From an uncultured Akkermansia sp. (lineage in GTDB: Bacteria; Verrucomicrobiota; Verrucomicrobiia; Verrucomicrobiales; Akkermansiaceae), in contig CANQSS010000002.1 in NCBI GenBank assembly GCA_947626545.1, forward strand, positions 1-64,000: 64,000 bases of DNA. The letters are read 5' to 3'. Made by a program: the position numbers and the translations under genes. Within the stretch, counting starts at the first letter, position 1. Each line of letters starts with the position of its first letter. This document shows, piece after piece, positions 1 to 18,864 of this stretch. Below the pieces are notes generated by a model, which worked only from the letters and a program-made list of their open reading frames with translations, did no database searches and had not been told where the DNA came from.

Positions 1-3000
1 CTGTGCTGCTCGGAGAAGAAGCTCGTGCCCTCCACCCAGACGTGCGTGGTCTTGCATGGGCGCTGCTGCTGCGTTGCCTCATCGTTGCCTTGGCAGCGCA
101 GGCGTGCAGCCTGCAGGGCGTGATCGCGCACGCGGCTCGTCTGGTTGCGCAGGGCAGCGCCCTGCGCCGCGGAGACTGAGGTGAGCGTGCTACCCGCCAT
201 GGCGGCGAGAGTCCGGTGGGCGACTGCCGGATTGCTCTCCATGGCACCGGCTATAAATTCTGCCATACGCTCCACATCCGGATCAACCCCGTTGATACTG
301 CTGCGCAGTACATGACCGGACACCAAGGCGGCACCGGCTTTCTCGTTGAATGTTTCAGCAAAGGCAATCACCGGGTTGACATCCTGATCCATCAGGGTGA
401 GTGATACGGTGCTACCCAATGTTTCCGTTTCTGCCGCGGGCGTTGCCTGCCGGAACAAAGCGATCCTCTTCTCCCTGGCTTCCGCAACAGCAGCTTCGCT
501 GTTCATGAACGAAACGTAGGCCTCCTTGTAGCGCCAATTGAGCGTGCCTGTCAGCTTCACCTTCACGTCCTTGTCCAGCTGTTCTCCGATAGTATCTTCC
601 AGTAGAGTGTTGTCCGTGTACGTCCCATGCACCGCGTACACATGCGCTCCTCTCATGATGACCACGTTCTTCAAATCCTCATTCGAGGCGATGATATCCT
701 TCAAATTGTGGATCTCAAAGATCGTTCCGGCTTCGATGATGATGTTCCGGCTCACGCTGACCATCGTGTCGCTCGCACTGTCCTGCCACAGATCTCCATT
801 GCTCAGATCCATGAAGATGCGCGTTGTCGCATTCTTGCGCAGGACGAGATCCTTCTGCACCCGGAGCGGTTCCTCTGAAGCATCCGACAGGATCATGACG
901 CTTTTCTCGCCACTGTTGTCCAGTGTGCCGTCAATGTTCGCTCCGTTAAGTGCATATTCACCCTGCATGGTCGTATCGCCGGTGATGGCGCCCGAGAACG
1001 TGCCTTCCCCTGTCAGCGTGACGCCTTCTCTTGCCGTCACCTCTTTTTCCCCCTCCAGATTCTGAAGGGTGACCGCGTTGTTTCCGAAGTCGGCGCTTTT
1101 AGCTTTGCCCATTTGGAAGGTTAGTTCCTCGCCCAGCTTCACACCCTCACCCATACCCATGGTGAAGTTACCATCCAGCACAACGGTGCCGGAGCCGGTG
1201 ATGCTACCCTGGCTGCCGGTCAAATCCTGACTTTGGGAGAGCGTGAGCTTGCCGTCCACCTGCAGTTCGCCACTCTTAGCATTTTCCTTGTCGCCGAGAG
1301 AAAGCTCGCCGTCGATGAAGCTGTCATTGCCGCCAATCGCCAGCTTGCCCTCCTCCACGGCGACATCCCCACCGGCTTTCAGATCGCCGTCCACAGTCAG
1401 ACTTGCGTCTCCGGTCTTTCTGAGATCAACTTCATCTCCGGCAACTATGTTGCCGTGGAGGGTTGTATCGCCCGTGGGAACAAAAGCGGACTCCTCATGT
1501 TTGTTTTCGAATGCCACGATGCCGCTTCCCTGGATCTCCAAGTCTGTACTGCCTTCGAGCTGCCTGACGACTCCATCCTGTCCCTCTGCCGTCACCGTTG
1601 TCCGTTCATCAATTACCACTTTGTCGAATTGAGAAAGTGTTTCGGCATCCACACTCACATGACCCACGGCATCTTCAGTTCCGTCAGCGGCCGCATCCCA
1701 TACATTGCTCTTGCCGGACAAGATAAGCTTACCCTTTTCGGCATTCCAGCTCTCGACACTCAATCCCCATCCTGTTCCAAGTGTGAAGTGCTCCTTCGCC
1801 CAAGTCTCGGAATTCTCGCCTGTCAACCTGCCGTTTGTGAGCCAAACCTCCAGAGTGATGTGGCCCCTTTGGGCGGCGACCAGCTTCCCATCAAGATCCA
1901 ATTTAATTTGGACACCATCCGCTACATCTACGATACTCTGATCACCGGCATCACCTGCATTCGTTCCGAATTGCATGATGGCTTGCTTGCCTTCAAGCGC
2001 TTCTTCTCCACTTTCCCATACGTTTTGCTCCGTGACCTTGAAGCTGTCATCGGCATGCAGGGTCAGGGTACTCCCCTCCTTCAGTCCGGTGAGGTAAGTG
2101 TCTTTGCCCGCCAGTTGGATGCTTGTGATGCGCGCGGCGTCCACTCCGCCAAGATCCACCGCGCCGGTGTACGTGTCACCGGTCCGGATGGCTAAGCTAC
2201 CCGCGTAGTTCCCGGCATTTGCCAGGCTCCCGCCGTGCATGGTGATGCTTCCTTGCGCTGCCTGATTGCCCAAGTCGTAGCTGCTCGTCTTCCCTTCCAT
2301 GGTGACGGCGCCATTCATGCTCCCGCCGCTGAGGGTGAGTTTCGCTCCTTCACCCAGTGAGAATTTCGCGCCTTCACCAATGCTTCCACCTTCCTGGGTG
2401 TAGCCGGTGCCCTCCCCGCTCAGTGTGACGGAGGTGCCGTTGATTGTCCCGTTGCTCTGCGTCATGGTCGCGCCGCCACTCAGATCCAACGTGCCACCGG
2501 TAATCTGACCTCCATCTTGTCTCATGCTCGCGCTGCCGCTCAGTGTGATGGAGGCACCGTCGATTGCTCCTTTGCTCTGCGTCAGGTTTGCACCATCGCT
2601 CAGCGAGAATGCCGCACCTCCACCGATGTTCCCACCCGCTTGGGCGAAGCTGGCTCCCTCCGTCAGGGTGAAGGTCGCACCGCTGATTGTGCCACTTGCT
2701 TGGGTGTAGCCAGTGCCTCCCCCGCTCAATGTGACGGAGGTGTCGTTGATTGTCCCGTTGCTCTGCGTCAGGTTTGCACCATCGCTCAGCGAGAATGCCG
2801 CACCTCCATCGATGCTCCCACCCGCTTGGGCGAAGCTGGCTCCCTCCGTCAGGGTGAAGGTCGCACCGCTGATTGTGCCACTTGCCTGAGTGTAGCCAGT
2901 GCCTTCCCCGCTCAGTTTAATGGAGCCGCCCTTGATCGCTGCCTCTCCCTTCTGACTCATCTGAGCGCCGTTATCGAGTTGCGTGTTTTGCACCCCATAG

Positions 3001-6000
3001 CTCACTCCGCCGGCTAAGGTCAGACTCGCTCCGCTGCCAAGCTTCACGTTGCCCTTGCCGCTTATGCTCCCGCTACTCTCTTCACTCATCTCCGTGGCCC
3101 CGGTTAACGCCAACGTCCCGTCCACCTGCAACTTGCCTCCGCTCATGGCAAGTGTTCCGATGCTGTTGGCTCCCCCCGAAAGAGCAAGGGTGCCTTCTTT
3201 CACCTCCACGGTGCCGCTACTCTCCAAGTTCCCATGCACGTTTAACGCCGCATCTCCTGTCTTTTCAAGGGTCGCTGCCTCCAACCCCGTTCCTTCCACG
3301 CGAATATTCCCGTAAAAGTTCGTGCCGCCATTGTCGCCGTTGGTATTCTCATTGTGCAGCTGCACGGTGTGGCCGGCTGTGGCTCCCGATTCTGTCTTCA
3401 CGATGAAGTCGCCGTGCGTCTTTTCGTCACTTCGCAACTGGTGGACGATGGTGGTGGGCGTCTCTTCCTGCGTGGTCGGCAGTGTGAGGGTCAGGTCCTT
3501 GTCCGCAATAACTGCGCTGTAGTTGTTCAACAGATCTGCCACGTCCACGTTTTGTCCGTTGCGCGAGGCGATCCATACGCCCTCCGTGCTGCCCGTGAGG
3601 ATCAGGTGTCCGCCTTCTGCATCACTCAGCAGCAGTACCTTGATACCGTCCAGTCCTGTCTCCAGCACAAAATGCTCTTTCAACCACGCTTCCAGCTCCT
3701 TTTGTCCTCCTTCCGGCATTCCGCTGAAGCTGCCATTGGTGAAGAGGATTTCCAGCTGCCCTTCGATGTCCTTCAGCACCTCGTTCTCCAGGCGCAACTG
3801 TAGCTTACCGGCCTCACCGAAGGCGATTTGTCCTTTTCCATCCCGGAACTGCACCATCGTTCCTCCCGCCGGTTCGGTTTGTCCTTCGCGGTACACGTGT
3901 TGCACGCCCACTACCATCGCATCCCCTTCCCTGAAGGTGAGCGTGCTGCCGCTCTTCAAGTTGCGCAGTTCCGTTCCGGAGGCCCCGATCCGGACCTGGG
4001 TGATGCGTGCAGCATCGACTCCGCCAAGATCCAACGAGCCGGTGTATGTAGCATCGGTCTGAATGGCCAGGTTCCCCGCGTATTTCTCAGCATTTGCCAG
4101 ATTTCCGCCGTGCATGGTGATGCTTCCCTGCGCGGCCTGATTGCCCAGGTCGTAGAGGCTCGTCTTTCCTTCCATGGAGACAGCGCCATTCATGCTCCCG
4201 CCGCTGAGAGTGAGGGTCGCTCCGTCCTTCAACGAGAATGTCGCGCCTTCACCAATGCTTCCACCCGCCTGGGTGAAGCTAGTGCCCTCGGTCAGGGTGA
4301 AGGTCGCACCGCCGATTGTGCCACCCGCCTGGGTGTAGCCGGTGCCTTCCCCGCTCAGTTTAATGGAGCCGCCTTTGATCGCTGCCTCTCCTTTCTGACT
4401 CATCTGAGCGCCGTTTTCGAGTTGCGTGTTTTGCACCTCATAGCTCACTCCGCCGGCTAAGGTCAGGCTTGCCCCGCTGCCGAGCTTCACATTGCCCTTG
4501 CCGCTTATGCTTCCGTGACTCTCTTCACTCATCTCCGTGACCCCGGTTAGCTCCAGCGTCCCGTCCACCTGCAACTTGCCTCCGCTCATGGCAAGTGTTC
4601 CGATGCTGTTGGCTGTTCCACCCAGAGCAAGGGTGCCTCCTTTCACCTCCACGGTGCCGCTGCTCTCCACGTTCCCATGCACGTTCAGTGCCGCATCTCC
4701 TGTTTTTTCGAGGGTCGCGGCTTCCAGTCCTGTTCCTTCTACGCGAACATCCCCGTAGAATTCCGTGTCGCCATTGTCGCCGTCGGCATTCTCACTGTGC
4801 AGCTGTACGGTGTGGTTGGCTGTGGCTCCCGATTCTGTCTTCACGATGAAGTCGCCGTGCTTCTCTCTTTCATTTTGCAACTGGTTGACGATGGTGGGTG
4901 TCTCTTCCTGCGTGGCCGGCAGTGTGAGGGTCAGGTCCTCGTCCGCAATAACTGCGCTGTAGTGGTTCAACAGATCCGCCACGTCCACGTTTTGCCCGTT
5001 GCGCGAGGCGATCCAGATGCCCGACGAGCTGCCCGTGAGTATCAAGCGTCCACCTTCTGCACCACTCAACAGTAGCACCGGGAGTCCTGCATCCAGCACA
5101 AAGTGCTCTCCCAGCCACGCTTCCAACTCCTTTTGTCCTCCTTCCGGCATTCCGCTGAAGCTGCCATTGGTGAAGAGGATTTCCAGCTGCCCTTCGAGGC
5201 CCTCCAGTACCTTGCTCTTCAGGTGCAACTGTAGCTTACCGGCCTCACCGAAGGCGATTTGTCCTCCTCCTTCCTGGAACTGCACCATCGTTTCTCCTGC
5301 CAGTTCGGTTTGTCCTTTGCGGTACACGTGTTGCTTGCCCACCACCATCTGATCCCCCTTCCTGAAGGTGAGTGTGGTATCTTTCATAAGCCCAACAATT
5401 CCACTGTCACCAGCGTTGGTGAGCGAAACCTGTTTTACCAGCGATGCGTCCAGTCCCCCCAAATCCACCGTGACCAGAGTATCCGAAACGTCGGATCGGA
5501 CAAAGACCCCACGTTGGAATGCTGCCTTCTGGTAGTCGCTTGTTAGAGCCTTGTTCGAGAGCTCAAGTTTTCCCCCTGCCATGACGACATCGGCGTAGAT
5601 TGTCGTCGGATTGGTTTCTTCATCAGTATAATCCAGTTTGAAGGTGGAACCTCCGCAGATGGTGATCGAGGCTTCAGAAACCCCTTCCATGCCTATGGTA
5701 GCTGCGCCCGCAATGGCAAAGACGGCGTCGCTAACCGTGATTGTCGTAGAGCACGCTCCTACCTGATCCGGCACCGCAGAAGTATTTACCGTGGCTGCCT
5801 CGCCCGTGGTCTTCGAGTGCAGGACAAACTCTCCGCCGTTTGTCACGTTGATGGTGACGCCGGAGGAAGTTCCCTTCGAGACGATGCCGATGTCGCCTTT
5901 GGTGGTGAACTTGCTATTCTTACCGTCTACGTTGATGAGCACCGTTGAGGTCTCGTTGTCCACTTCTGAAGTGTCGGCAATGCGCGAGAAATCGCCGCCC

Positions 6001-6854
6001 CAATATTTGCCCCCCGATTCTATCTGAATCGTTGTGGTGAGAATATCTTTTCCAGAAGTTGTTGCGTAAGCGGGATTCCGTGCTCCCTTACCGAGCGTAT
6101 CCGACCCGGAGCATTCCCCATTATACTCTCCTCCTTTGAGTGTAAGCGTTGTTGTTGCTGTACACGTAGTTTCCGTACCATTAAAAGCTTGCGCTTCTCC
6201 AACGATCACAGAGCCTGCACGGAACTCACCTCCCTTCTCCACCTCGATGTTGGTAATCATTTCGCATCCTCCACGGCCGCCAGCTGCTCGCGACAGGGTT
6301 AGCGTCTTTCCGTCTTTTCTGGCGCAATTCAACGTTCCTCCCTGATGGATTTTGATAATGCCCGTCAATGTTCCTGCCACTGCACTAAAAAGATCCGGTG
6401 GCGTGTTGGATGACAAATCGGGGTATGAATCGCTCCACCTCAACTCGCCACTTAAATCGATGGTTGTTCGACCGGTTGCCCCCCAACCGTACCGTGTGTA
6501 GCCCAAAGTGGTGCCAGTAGTGGCATTTTTCCCTCTGCAAATTTCCAAAGCACAGCCAGCACCTACGGTGATTTGATTGTGATCTCCAATAAAAGTCACA
6601 TGATAATCTAAATCTCCCGATGCCGTCTTCACGCATACCTCACCCTCCGAATCGTCCTTCTGTATGGTCAGCGTGACATCTTGATAGTATCCTTGTTGGA
6701 TGATGTTGTCGTCTGATAATCCAGTGCCACGCGTAGCTCCACCTGGCATTTTCTCTTGCGGAGCATACGTGAACGAAACCTCCGCCGATGACCGGGAAGC
6801 AGACAGCACGGCGAAGAGAGCAGATAATAATGCGACGGGCAAATGGAGTTTCAT
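1..6854 (-). CDS. Very large autotransporter / passenger beta-helix adhesin, C-terminus truncated by the window edge
   Basis: Manual translation of the minus strand from ATG at 6854 (MKLHLPVALLSALFAVLSASRSSAEVSFTYAPQEK...) stays open in one frame to position 1 (~2284 codons). It has a signal peptide, Gly/Ser/Thr-rich repeats (SGGxxTQSNGTINGTSVTLSGEGTGYTQ) and a C-terminal segment VERMAEFIAGAMESNPAVAHRTLAAMAGSTLTSVSAAQGAALRNQTSRVRDHALQAARLR...HVWVEGTSFFSEQ typical of verrucomicrobial autotransporter barrels. Missing from the ORF track because no stop lies in the window. Confidence 0.9.
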   Translation of the reverse strand, partial: MKLHLPVALLSALFAVLSASRSSAEVSFTYAPQEKMPGGATRGTGLSDDNIIQQGYYQDVTLTIQKDDSEGEVCVKTASGDLDYHVTFIGDHNQITVGAGCALEICRGKNATTGTTLGYTRYGWGATGRTTIDLSGELRWSDSYPDLSSNTPPDLFSAVAGTLTGIIKIHQGGTLNCARKDGKTLTLSRAAGGRGGCEMITNIEVEKGGEFRAGSVIVGEAQAFNGTETTCTATTTLTLKGGEYNGECSGSDTLGKGARNPAYATTSGKDILTTTIQIESGGKYWGGDFSRIADTSEVDNETSTVLINVDGKNSKFTTKGDIGIVSKGTSSGVTINVTNGGEFVLHSKTTGEAATVNTSAVPDQVGACSTTITVSDAVFAIAGAATIGMEGVSEASITICGGSTFKLDYTDEETNPTTIYADVVMAGGKLELSNKALTSDYQKAAFQRGVFVRSDVSDTLVTVDLGGLDASLVKQVSLTNAGDSGIVGLMKDTTLTFRKGDQMVVGKQHVYRKGQTELAGETMVQFQEGGGQIAFGEAGKLQLHLKSKVLEGLEGQLEILFTNGSFSGMPEGGQKELEAWLGEHFVLDAGLPVLLLSGAEGGRLILTGSSSGIWIASRNGQNVDVADLLNHYSAVIADEDLTLTLPATQEETPTIVNQLQNEREKHGDFIVKTESGATANHTVQLHSENADGDNGDTEFYGDVRVEGTGLEAATLEKTGDAALNVHGNVESSGTVEVKGGTLALGGTANSIGTLAMSGGKLQVDGTLELTGVTEMSEESHGSISGKGNVKLGSGASLTLAGGVSYEVQNTQLENGAQMSQKGEAAIKGGSIKLSGEGTGYTQAGGTIGGATFTLTEGTSFTQAGGSIGEGATFSLKDGATLTLSGGSMNGAVSMEGKTSLYDLGNQAAQGSITMHGGNLANAEKYAGNLAIQTDATYTGSLDLGGVDAARITQVRIGASGTELRNLKSGSTLTFREGDAMVVGVQHVYREGQTEPAGGTMVQFRDGKGQIAFGEAGKLQLRLENEVLKDIEGQLEILFTNGSFSGMPEGGQKELEAWLKEHFVLETGLDGIKVLLLSDAEGGHLILTGSTEGVWIASRNGQNVDVADLLNNYSAVIADKDLTLTLPTTQEETPTTIVHQLRSDEKTHGDFIVKTESGATAGHTVQLHNENTNGDNGGTNFYGNIRVEGTGLEAATLEKTGDAALNVHGNLESSGTVEVKEGTLALSGGANSIGTLAMSGGKLQVDGTLALTGATEMSEESSGSISGKGNVKLGSGASLTLAGGVSYGVQNTQLDNGAQMSQKGEAAIKGGSIKLSGEGTGYTQASGTISGATFTLTEGASFAQAGGSIDGGAAFSLSDGANLTQSNGTINDTSVTLSGGGTGYTQASGTISGATFTLTEGASFAQAGGNIGGGAAFSLSDGANLTQSKGAIDGASITLSGSASMRQDGGQITGGTLDLSGGATMTQSNGTINGTSVTLSGEGTGYTQEGGSIGEGAKFSLGEGAKLTLSGGSMNGAVTMEGKTSSYDLGNQAAQGSITMHGGSLANAGNYAGSLAIRTGDTYTGAVDLGGVDAARITSIQLAGKDTYLTGLKEGSTLTLHADDSFKVTEQNVWESGEEALEGKQAIMQFGTNAGDAGDQSIVDVADGVQIKLDLDGKLVAAQRGHITLEVWLTNGRLTGENSETWAKEHFTLGTGWGLSVESWNAEKGKLILSGKSNVWDAAADGTEDAVGHVSVDAETLSQFDKVVIDERTTVTAEGQDGVVRQLEGSTDLEIQGSGIVAFENKHEESAFVPTGDTTLHGNIVAGDEVDLRKTGDASLTVDGDLKAGGDVAVEEGKLAIGGNDSFIDGELSLGDKENAKSGELQVDGKLTLSQSQDLTGSQGSITGSGTVVLDGNFTMGMGEGVKLGEELTFQMGKAKSADFGNNAVTLQNLEGEKEVTAREGVTLTGEGTFSGAITGDTTMQGEYALNGANIDGTLDNSGEKSVMILSDASEEPLRVQKDLVLRKNATTRIFMDLSNGDLWQDSASDTMVSVSRNIIIEAGTIFEIHNLKDIIASNEDLKNVVIMRGAHVYAVHGTYTDNTLLEDTIGEQLDKDVKVKLTGTLNWRYKEAYVSFMNSEAAVAEAREKRIALFRQATPAAETETLGSTVSLTLMDQDVNPVIAFAETFNEKAGAALVSGHVLRSSINGVDPDVERMAEFIAGAMESNPAVAHRTLAAMAGSTLTSVSAAQGAALRNQTSRVRDHALQAARLRCQGNDEATQQQRPCKTTHVWVEGTSFFSEQH
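2581..2952. repeat. Two near-identical 186-bp (62-codon) tandem repeats inside the autotransporter gene
   Basis: gtcaggtttgcaccatcgctcagcgagaatgccgcacctcca... at 2581 recurs at 2767 (offset 186 bp, in frame). Confidence 0.85.
2911..5400. repeat. ~1.44-kb duplicated module inside the autotransporter gene (copies ~2911-3970 and ~4354-5400)
   Basis: Long near-identical blocks at offset ~1431-1443 bp, e.g. ctcagtttaatggagccgcc at 2911/4354 and acgtccacgttttg at 3541/4981. Confidence 0.85.
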
Positions 6855-6931
6855 ATTGTTTTTATTGGTTGTTTTTTGAAAGAGAAGGAGCATTGCGATT
6901 TCTATCGCTGCAGCATCTCCGGGGAGAGTCT

Positions 6932-7106
6932 ACGTATTTAGAATACGTATTAACGCATGCATAAATCTTTGATGATGTAAATCTTGCAAAAACACAAACA
7001 ATCATATTTTTCGCCTTTATGGTAAGAGAGACCTCTCAATAAAGCATTGAATATGAAAGATAAAAATTTTTCAAATAGAGACTTGACATACGTATTCTAA
7101 AAACGC
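6932..7106. promoter_or_regulatory. Candidate invertible promoter segment A (inverted sites 6932-6948 and 7090-7106), upstream of the autotransporter
   Basis: ACGTATTTAGAATACGT at 6932-6948 and inverted partner ACGTATTCTAAAAACGC at 7090-7106. CTTGACAT (-35) sits inside the segment at 7082-7089. A minus-strand -10 TAGACT lies just outside the left site. Confidence 0.7.
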
Positions 7107-7130
7107 AGAGCAAAGGGAAAAGGAGAACAA

Positions 7131-8139
7131 ATGAAGGAAGAAAGCAAGAACATAACTGAGGAAGAGCGAGCGCTCATTATCATGATGAGGTCTATCAAAG
7201 TACAAGCGCATGAAGTGATGCGCTTTGTGCAAGAGGGGCTGAAGCGAGGAGGCGGCAAATTGCGGCGAGCGGAACGCTGTCTGGAGCTGGGAGAGGAGGG
7301 AATGAAACGCAACCGGCAAACGGTGAGTTTTTGCACAGGCGGTAGAAGCAGCAGCGGAGGAGAAAAAGGAGAGACGGGCGCGCACGCAGAGTGGCTTTCG
7401 GCAAGCGATGAGACGACTGATGCGCGAGTGTCCGCAGGTGAAGTTACGACGTGTGCGCAGCATACGCAGCGAGGAATGCGCCGCATGGCTGGAGAGGGCA
7501 TATACCACACCAAGCCAACGCAAGAAGGCACGCGTGGCGCTCAGCAGTGTATTCAGCACAGCCAAACGTCGCGGTTGGTGCTCCGAAAACCCGATACGCA
7601 GCATCCCTGTGCCTCATATCCGAGAAAAGAGCATCAGCATCCTCAGCAAAGAGGAACTCACACGTTTAATGCACACCGCCGAGACATTCAATGGCGGCTC
7701 TTGTCTCGCTCCGCTGGCTATCATGCTCTACGCCGGAGTACGCCCCAACGAAGTGGAGCGGCTGTGCTGGGGCGACGTGCGGCTTGAAAACGGCAGGATT
7801 CTTATCGCACCGCGCCACAGCAAGACCGGAGGCGCGCGCCACGTTACCATCTTCCCACCATTAGCTCGCATCCTGCAGCGCATCCGCCGCCCTGATGCTG
7901 AACGAATCTGTCCGCCGAACTGGAGACGACTCCAAACCCTCCTGCACCACGAAGCCGGCCTCACCGCATGGCAACCGGATGTCCTGCGCCACACTTTCGC
8001 CACACACCACCTCGCCACCTTTCGCAACTACGCCGAGCTGCAGCTCGAAATGGGTCACCGCTCTGCCGAGCTGCTGCGCACTCGCTACATCGCGATGGAG
8101 GGCATGTACCACCATGAGAATTCCCTGCTTGTCAACTAA
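7131..8139 (+). CDS. Tyrosine recombinase/integrase with an apparent frameshift at a T5 run (7328-7332)
   Basis: Good SD (aggag) before ATG 7131. Frame 7131.. gives ...MKRNRQTVSF and frame 7408.. gives the catalytic domain. Removing one T joins them as RQTVSFAQAVEAAAEEKKERRARTQSGFRQAMRRLM.... Catalytic elements: GVRPNEV, HSKTGGARHV, DVLRHTFATH, EMGHRS, RTRYI. Confidence 0.85.
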
Positions 8140-8148
8140 ACATCCTAG

Positions 8149-8360
8149 GGCAACCGCATTAGAAAATGCGGTTGCCATGTACGATGTACGATTTATTAAT
8201 AATGTGCGCATTGCGCAGATTTTTTTCGAATCATTAATGTGTGCTGAGATTCCTCTAGATCCGTCATTATGATGACCACCGGTTATCACGGTTTTTGATA
8301 CGTATGAACAGTGATATCGGTCAATAAGAGCATTTTTCCGTTGATGAACTCCTCTTAAAG
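8149..8360. repeat. Dispersed element type I (palindrome + heptamers + conserved ~170-bp body)
   Basis: GGCAACCGCATT-AGAA-AATGCGGTTGCC, ATGTACGATGTACGATTTATTAATAATG..., ...TTTTTGATACGTATgAACAnTGATATCnG body shared with 15706-15938 and 23353-23589. Confidence 0.85.
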
Positions 8361-8363
8361 CAC

Positions 8364-8747
8364 ATGGGATTGACCACATGGAAGGATGCACCGGAGGGCA
8401 AAACCATCGAGAGCGATGTTGTCGTAGTGAAAAATTACCTGTCAGAGGAAGAAATGAGGCAGCTCAATCGCCCGGTGAATGCTTACTTGAATTATGCTAA
8501 GACGATGGCTCAACGTAAAATTCCCATGACGATGCAGGATTGGGAACAACGACTCAACGGATTCATCCGCTTGTTTGAATACGATGTGCTCGCCGATGCG
8601 GGCAAGGTAACAGCGGAGATCGCGCGTCTGCACGCCGAAAGCGAGTTCGAGAAATACCGGGTGATTCAGGATCGCGAGTACCTTTCGGACTACGACCGCT
8701 ACCTGTTGGAACTGGAGGGACGCTGCAAGAAAAAGGAGCAACCTTGA
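8364..8747 (+). pseudogene. RhuM-family protein, C-terminal fragment
   Basis: HMGLTTWKDAPEGKTIESDVVVVKNYLSEEEM...MTMQDWEQRLNGFIRLFEYDVLADAGKVTAEIARLHAESEFEKYRVIQDREYLSDYDRYLLELE resembles the RhuM C-terminus; the N-terminal portion is absent. Confidence 0.7.
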
Positions 8748-8815: not shown

Positions 8816-8988
8816 ACGTATTGGGAATACGTATGTCAAGCCATCAGTCAGAAAAAACAATCTTTTCTTTTCAGTGACTTGCAAAGTCAGGTCATTGCTT
8901 TCGGCAAAGAAAAGAGTGCAATTAGTGGTTGGCTTGTCGCTTCATTGCGAGTGAGATACGCTCGAAGCTGTGCGTATTCCCAATACGC
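8816..8988. promoter_or_regulatory. Candidate invertible promoter segment B (inverted sites 8816-8832 and 8972-8988), upstream of the OMP gene
   Basis: ACGTATTGGGAATACGT followed by ATGTCAAG (minus-strand CTTGACAT) at 8816-8840; GCGTATTCCCAATACGC followed directly by TATACT at 8972-8994. Confidence 0.7.
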
Positions 8989-9021
8989 TATACTTCCCTC
9001 GTCCAAGTGGACAACGATCCT

Positions 9022-9678
9022 ATGAAAAAGACAGCTATTACATTATTGGCGTGTGCTGCGCTCGGCGTCGCATACGGACAGGAAGAGCAGCAGAAGAGCG
9101 GATTCGGTCTCGAACTGAACGCCGCTTACAACTTCGCGCTGAAGGATATCTCGAAAGCTGAAGAAGGGGTGCCTGCTTTCAAGGTGGATACATATGGCGT
9201 GGATTTGACCGCCTTCTACGCCTTCAACGAACATCATGCCGTGAATATCCGCTTTGGCTATGCAACGGGCGATGATGAGCATACTTTGTATGATTCATAC
9301 AATGGAATCGTGATTTCGGATAATATAAAGGTGGAGGTACAGAATATCTACATTATGCCCGGATATCGCCTGAAGACTTCTTTGAACGACTCCTTGAGTT
9401 TCTTCGGTGGTGTCAATGTGGGTCTCGCTCAGACAAAAGGAAAAATTGAGGAAAGTTTTGTGGGAGAAAGCTACAGCGAGAGCAAGAGCAAATGGGGCTT
9501 CGCATGGAGCGCGGAAGTCGGATTGGCGCAGAAAATTGCCAATACTGGATCCGTGACCCTTTCCGTACAGCTTATGCAGATGCTGGGACGCCCTGATTTC
9601 GGGGATGAGTACGAAAGCGCTAAGGCAGAGAGCCAACTCAACCTCGGCGTGCGGCTGGGTTACAGCTGCCAGTTCTGA
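9022..9678 (+). CDS. Outer membrane beta-barrel protein (porin-like)
   Basis: Signal peptide MKKTAITLLACAALGVAYGQ, alternating amphipathic strands, terminal aromatic (YSCQF). The ORF track start at 8929 is an extension; ATG 9022 gives the signal peptide. Confidence 0.8.
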   Translation: MKKTAITLLACAALGVAYGQEEQQKSGFGLELNAAYNFALKDISKAEEGVPAFKVDTYGVDLTAFYAFNEHHAVNIRFGYATGDDEHTLYDSYNGIVISDNIKVEVQNIYIMPGYRLKTSLNDSLSFFGGVNVGLAQTKGKIEESFVGESYSESKSKWGFAWSAEVGLAQKIANTGSVTLSVQLMQMLGRPDFGDEYESAKAESQLNLGVRLGYSCQF

Positions 9679-18777: not shown

Positions 18778-18864
18778 AGGACAACCGAGTTCAGAATAAA
18801 GTGGAAAAGTAGAGAAAACTCTCCAAGCAGCGCAAATGGCAAACGCATTTCCAATGCGGTTGCT
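18778..18864. repeat. Dispersed element type II (partial)
   Basis: gtggaaaagtagagaaaactctcc...GGCAAACGCATTTCCAATGCGGTTGCT. Confidence 0.75.

Follow-up and report, generated by a model that had tools for sequence, protein, structure and literature searches.

The analysed window, the first 64,000 nucleotides of contig C2 in a 2.7-Mb Akkermansia genome of 146 contigs, very probably carries an inversion (phase-variation) switch at positions 6932-7106, in which a split sigma-70-type promoter lies before a gene of the autotransporter family. The -35 half of this promoter would be moved by inversion and the -10 half would stay in place. The same design was found at a second locus in the window and, with matching site centres throughout, in a collection of related genomes.

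The putative switch at 6932-7106

Site a, ACGTATTTAGAATACGT (ACGTATT-TAG-AATACGT, 6932-6948), lies on the adhesin side of the element and site b, ACGTATTCTAAAAACGC (ACGTATT-CTA-AAAACGC, 7090-7106), on the recombinase side; read inverted, site b has the central triplet of site a. Between them is an AT-rich segment of 141 bp (6949-7089). The highest-ranking inverted repeat that a repeat finder returned for the region has 22-nt arms, at 6929-6950 and 7088-7109, with 91% complementarity. The element thus has the inverted repeats around a short, mostly intergenic segment by which invertons are recognized.

A -35 half-promoter, TTGACA, is present on the top strand at 7083-7088 and, as assembled, faces away from the adhesin. 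The -10 half-promoter, TAGACT, is located in the fixed flank on the bottom strand (6927-6932, read 6932 to 6927) and faces the adhesin. Inversion of 6949-7089 in silico resulted in TTGACA-17 bp-TAGACT on the minus strand, with site a as the 17-bp spacer. In the assembled orientation the -35 position reads CGTTAA, i.e. the switch is OFF. The first-pass annotation had claimed these sites, hexamers and spacing, and every coordinate was exact; the inversion product and the OFF state that it predicted were both reproduced.

The controlled gene (3-6854, minus strand; the listed ORF begins at 6893) encodes an autotransporter-family surface protein starting with MKLHLP. It had been described as a giant autotransporter. 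This ORF runs past the contig start and its beta-domain is therefore not in the window, so that the assignment comes from a paralogue, G000:C18, which has the same N-terminus, is full-length at 2908 aa and has an autotransporter beta-domain at its C-terminus (PF03797, E = 6.1e-40).

The window was searched for ACGTATTNNNAATACG with up to two mismatches, which gave 14 matches against 0.52 expected; none of 100 shuffles reached 14. The genome (G000) as a whole contains 11 exact copies of CGTATTNNNAATACG and none of its reversed control.

The window contains a second such switch, not included in the first-pass annotation, at 8816-8994, also assembled OFF. Its left site (8816-8832) has the centre GGG and its right site (8972-8988) the centre CCC. 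The -35, TTGACA (8834-8839, minus strand), faces away from the gene, and TATACT in the fixed flank (8989-8994, plus strand) would serve as the -10 with an 18-bp spacer once the segment is inverted. The gene (9022-9678, plus strand) encodes an outer-membrane beta-barrel protein (PF13505). Two orthologues of this switch, L016 and L146, have the same orientation. Elsewhere in the window, at 8149-8176 and near 18843, 32647, 50530 and 61706, there are dispersed REP-like palindromes of the GGCAAACGCATTnnnAATGCGTTTGCC type, which are unpaired, unlike the switch sites. A RhuM-family C-terminal fragment was observed at 8364-8747 (PF13310, profile positions 150-249 of 252); this gene is probably truncated.

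The following mechanism is proposed. The -35 would sit just inside one end of the ~141-bp segment and the -10 just outside the opposite, adhesin-side end, with the 17-bp recombination site itself as the spacer between them. The two palindromic sites would be paired by a tyrosine recombinase of the adjoining family, strands would be exchanged across the matching central triplet, and the segment would flip. In the ON state the -35 would meet the -10 and the giant autotransporter would be transcribed; in the OFF state, as in this assembly, the -35 would face the recombinase gene, where it would find no -10. Judging by the sequence, we infer that the orientation of the segment sets transcription of the adhesin.

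Inversion between genomes and the promoter rule

Comparison of orientations among relatives, suggested in the first-pass annotation, gave a positive result. Another Akkermansia species has, at G084:C7 (L151), a gene orthologous to the window adhesin (85% over 651 bp). Over 145 bp upstream the flanks share 93.8% identity; the segment itself is 65% identical in direct alignment and 78% when inverted. Toward the adhesin orthologue this locus reads TTGACATACGTATTCTAAATACGTAAACT, or TTGACA-17-TAAACT, the arrangement that the window switch would be expected to have when ON. Beyond the second site its flank differs from that of the window. Three further loci were found both ways: L013, in the same genome as the window, and L060 (flanks 97% and 96%, segment 97.4% only when inverted), L175 and L187 (flanks 88% and 100%, segment 98.6% only when inverted), and L020 and L147 (segment 85% identical, inverted only). 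Both orientations between conserved flanks, as expected of an inverton, are therefore seen between genomes. Among locus pairs matching at both flanks, 4 are inverted and 28 have the same orientation.

The segment at 6949-7089 presumably also flips within one population. Related A. muciniphila switches have been proven to flip by reads (PMC11892184; PMC13343947). In the window genome, 5 of the 11 exact sites have a contig end no more than 250 bp away; contig breaks near sites are expected from mixed orientations or from repeats, and this observation is only suggestive.

Across the window genome and its relatives CGTATTNNNAATACG forms inverted pairs about 155 bp apart. From the subclade of the window genome, 71 distinct site pairs in 11 genomes were collected. 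In every pair TTGACA or TTGACG is present just inside the segment on one side. The pattern with which most loci were collected required the -35, so that only the -10 result and the pairs of the window genome count as independent evidence; there, six CGTATT pairs were first found without this requirement and all six have the -35. The central triplets, with one site reverse-complemented, agree in 71 of 71 pairs, and shuffling of partners within genomes gave a mean of 21 and a maximum of 34 agreements. Such agreement is what strand exchange across the site centre requires. A centre of odd length is never symmetric, and between palindromic arms the centre alone would therefore set the polarity of a site. 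Three apparent pairs (L136, L168 and L019), whose centres matched at two of three positions, were discarded as combinations of unrelated sites.

In 56 pairs the downstream protein showed which side is the gene side. All 56 gene-side flanks have TAnnnT at a distance of 17 or 18 bp, as does 1 of the 56 opposite flanks. This difference indicates that the promoter is split, with the -35 inside, the -10 outside and the site as the spacer. Applied to the consensus orientations of the assemblies, the -35/-10 rule placed 49 of these switches in the OFF and 7 in the ON state; some switches could therefore flip rarely. A private triplet address for each switch was considered and ruled out, since within a single genome many switches share a triplet. 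Switches that share a triplet (10 of the 23 collected in G084 and 8 of the 17 in G008) could recombine with each other.

In two loci, L008:3242-3858 and L179:71-688, the spacing is 602-603 bp instead of ~156; the extra ~446 bp of L008 appears to be an insertion, perhaps the remnant of a mobile element. A scan of viral contigs gave one exact -35-plus-site match, in a 196-kb contig classed as viral (L220, IMGVR_UViG_638275561_000001).

Each site is itself a palindrome, and related unpaired palindromes occur elsewhere in the window, as would be expected if the repeats were operators bound by a regulator or terminators forming RNA hairpins, with static DNA in between. This reading was rejected as extremely improbable: orthologous loci have the segment inverted between conserved flanks, the triplets agree in every collected pair although an operator loop would put no constraint on them, and recombinase genes adjoin the pairs. 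The invertible promoter put forward in the first-pass annotation is instead supported by the inverted orthologue, the -10 rule and the adjoining tyrosine recombinases.

The target of the switch could also be questioned, since the assembled -35 faces the recombinase gene at 7131-8139, whose start is only 25 bp past site b. That flipping chiefly switches this gene and not the adhesin is, however, highly unlikely. The recombinase side has CAGAGC where a -10 would be, and TAnnnT is absent from 55 of 56 opposite flanks. Many switches have no recombinase neighbour yet always have a surface-protein gene, and inverton-linked invertases were reported to be mostly non-regulatable (PMC11892184).

Tyrosine recombinases and site classes

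The gene at 7131-8139 (plus strand) is a frameshifted copy of a tyrosine recombinase, a defect that the first-pass annotation does not mention. Its reading frame is interrupted by a single base, five T instead of four at 7328-7332, which may be an assembly error. The catalytic integrase domain (PF00589) was detected in the C-terminal ORF, 7408-8139 (E = 1.7e-14), and in an intact copy (E = 4.8e-14). Intact recombinases with 99% identity are present on C76 and C4 of the genome, each beside the same kind of site pair. As the adjacent copy is frameshifted, the enzyme acting at the window switch is probably one of the intact copies, provided in trans. Recombinases with 99% identity were also found in uncultured Akkermansia MAGs named 'Lapin' (L055 and L089). 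Lapin is French for rabbit, and the host is probably a rabbit.

The frameshift, together with the imperfect outer arm of site b (AAAACG instead of AATACG), raises the question of whether this copy, although of a genuine switch family, is a relic frozen in the OFF state. We regard this as unlikely. The intact recombinases elsewhere in the genome speak against it, and the central triplets of the window sites are still matched. Moreover, in three genomes every site beside a recombinase of this type has kept the AAAACG arm, as have many solo switches, which indicates that it is tolerated or functional.

Identity with XerC or XerD was rejected: the scores were 42.8 and 42.7 bits against NCBIfam equivalog cut-offs of 335 and 330. 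A search of solved structures with the recombinase returned only a weak XerC-like match, 4a8e. A serine-invertase system was ruled out by the neighbouring gene being a tyrosine recombinase.

Members of the recombinase family are present in 76 of the 77 genomes of the genus, mostly in several copies. A site pair ends at the start of 43 of the 52 family members with sufficient upstream sequence; for control ATGs the figure was 5 of 81. Mapped onto a tree built from 57 recombinases, the label 'neighbouring arms CGTATT' required 3 changes against 7.6 after shuffling, and none of 500 shuffles was as low. All eight rows with CGTATT arms fall in one group of 12 rows with moderate support (83/93). This clustering indicates that arm sequence and recombinase lineage go together.

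Two recombinases of a 63% class start 7 nt after the right site (L012:1756-1778 and L013:1472-1494), with a -35-like TTGCGT facing the gene; their transcripts would be nearly leaderless. A 65%-identical recombinase with a site pair was found in a contig labelled Lachnospiraceae (L059, CANPYY010000071.1). It clusters with an Akkermansia copy and the contig is probably mis-binned.

The arms of the window sites are CGTATT/AATACG and not the CGGATT/AATCCG of the class already published for the genus. The published motif, CGGATTNNNAATCCG, is present in 70 of the 77 genomes, in up to 97 exact copies. CGTATTNNNAATACG was found in 23 of the 77 and is frequent in only one group: G084 has 41 copies, G008 30, G087 20 and G000 11. 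The same four genomes have 2, 8, 1 and 1 CGGATT sites, respectively. The two classes are thus largely exclusive by lineage, a distribution that suggests a change of specificity in one lineage.

Pairs of the CGGATT type were analyzed in two other genomes of the genus. In this small sample the central triplets match in 18 of 18 pairs, and in 15 of 18 just one of the two sides has TTG where the -35 would be. TA is present at the -10 position in 12 of 15 flanks opposite the -35 and in 2 of 15 beside it; the states are mostly OFF. A design common to the genus may be envisaged, in which the site is a 17-bp spacer, the -35 is mobile, the -10 is fixed and the 3-bp centre picks the partner, and in which arms and recombinase co-diverged so that one lineage had its whole set of switches re-coded, with CGTATT replacing CGGATT. 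We give this proposal about an even chance of being correct.

Relation to known invertible promoters

Invertons of A. muciniphila with the motif CGGATT..AATCCG and the site CGGATTnnnAATCCG are attributed to Jiang et al. 2019 in PMC11892184 (group 138) and PMC13343947. Flipping of one near autotransporter-domain proteins was tracked by reads in mice (PMC11892184), and a capsule switch proved to be phase-variable (PMC13343947). These invertons resemble the window switch in belonging to the same genus, in having short inverted sites (~150-310 bp apart) and in adjoining surface or autotransporter genes. In the 18 pairs checked they also share the -35 inside, the -10 outside and the matching triplet. 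Both of their orientations have been seen in reads (PMC11892184, PMC13343947). The window class differs in its site, CGTATTnnnAATACG, its CGTATT arms, its own recombinase clade and its occurrence mainly in one subclade. Invertons in Akkermansia are therefore already published, and the CGTATT class with its own recombinase clade is a variant of them.

In E. coli the invertible promoter ipuS controls the autotransporter UpaE and is neighboured by the tyrosine recombinases IpuA and IpuB (PMC6083910). As in the window, it is an autotransporter promoter that inverts, with a tyrosine recombinase gene across the element. The ipuS element differs in being 260 bp long with 7-bp repeats, in containing both promoter and start site, in having its distal repeat in ipuA and in being a single locus (PMC6083910); the window class has many copies and a promoter split by the site.

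The window switch would act much as the E. coli element fimS does, which is inverted by the tyrosine recombinases FimB and FimE and whose promoter turns a surface adhesin ON or OFF. The fimS element has 9-bp repeats, holds an entire promoter and occupies one locus, whereas the promoter of the window class is split by the site and some species have tens of copies per genome. The complete promoter inside the segment that characterizes fimS and ipuS was not found here: only the -35 is inside and the -10 is in the fixed flank.

No description of a split invertible promoter was found in the literature searched. The same holds for the CGTATT class together with its recombinase clade, for the triplet rule and for a site that serves as promoter spacer, although their absence from the literature that could be read counts only weakly toward novelty. 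The Akkermansia promoter motif already published did not pass a test of promoter orientation (PMC11892184), and this may be because the segment holds only half a promoter.

Akkermansia, a gut commensal that lives in mucus and has been studied extensively, has a surface that varies from cell to cell. With the rule of a -35 inside and a -10 outside, any assembly or set of reads would reveal whether each of tens of adhesin and outer-membrane genes is ON or OFF. The two site classes with their matching recombinase clades would, in addition, provide a natural system for the study of site choice by tyrosine recombinases.
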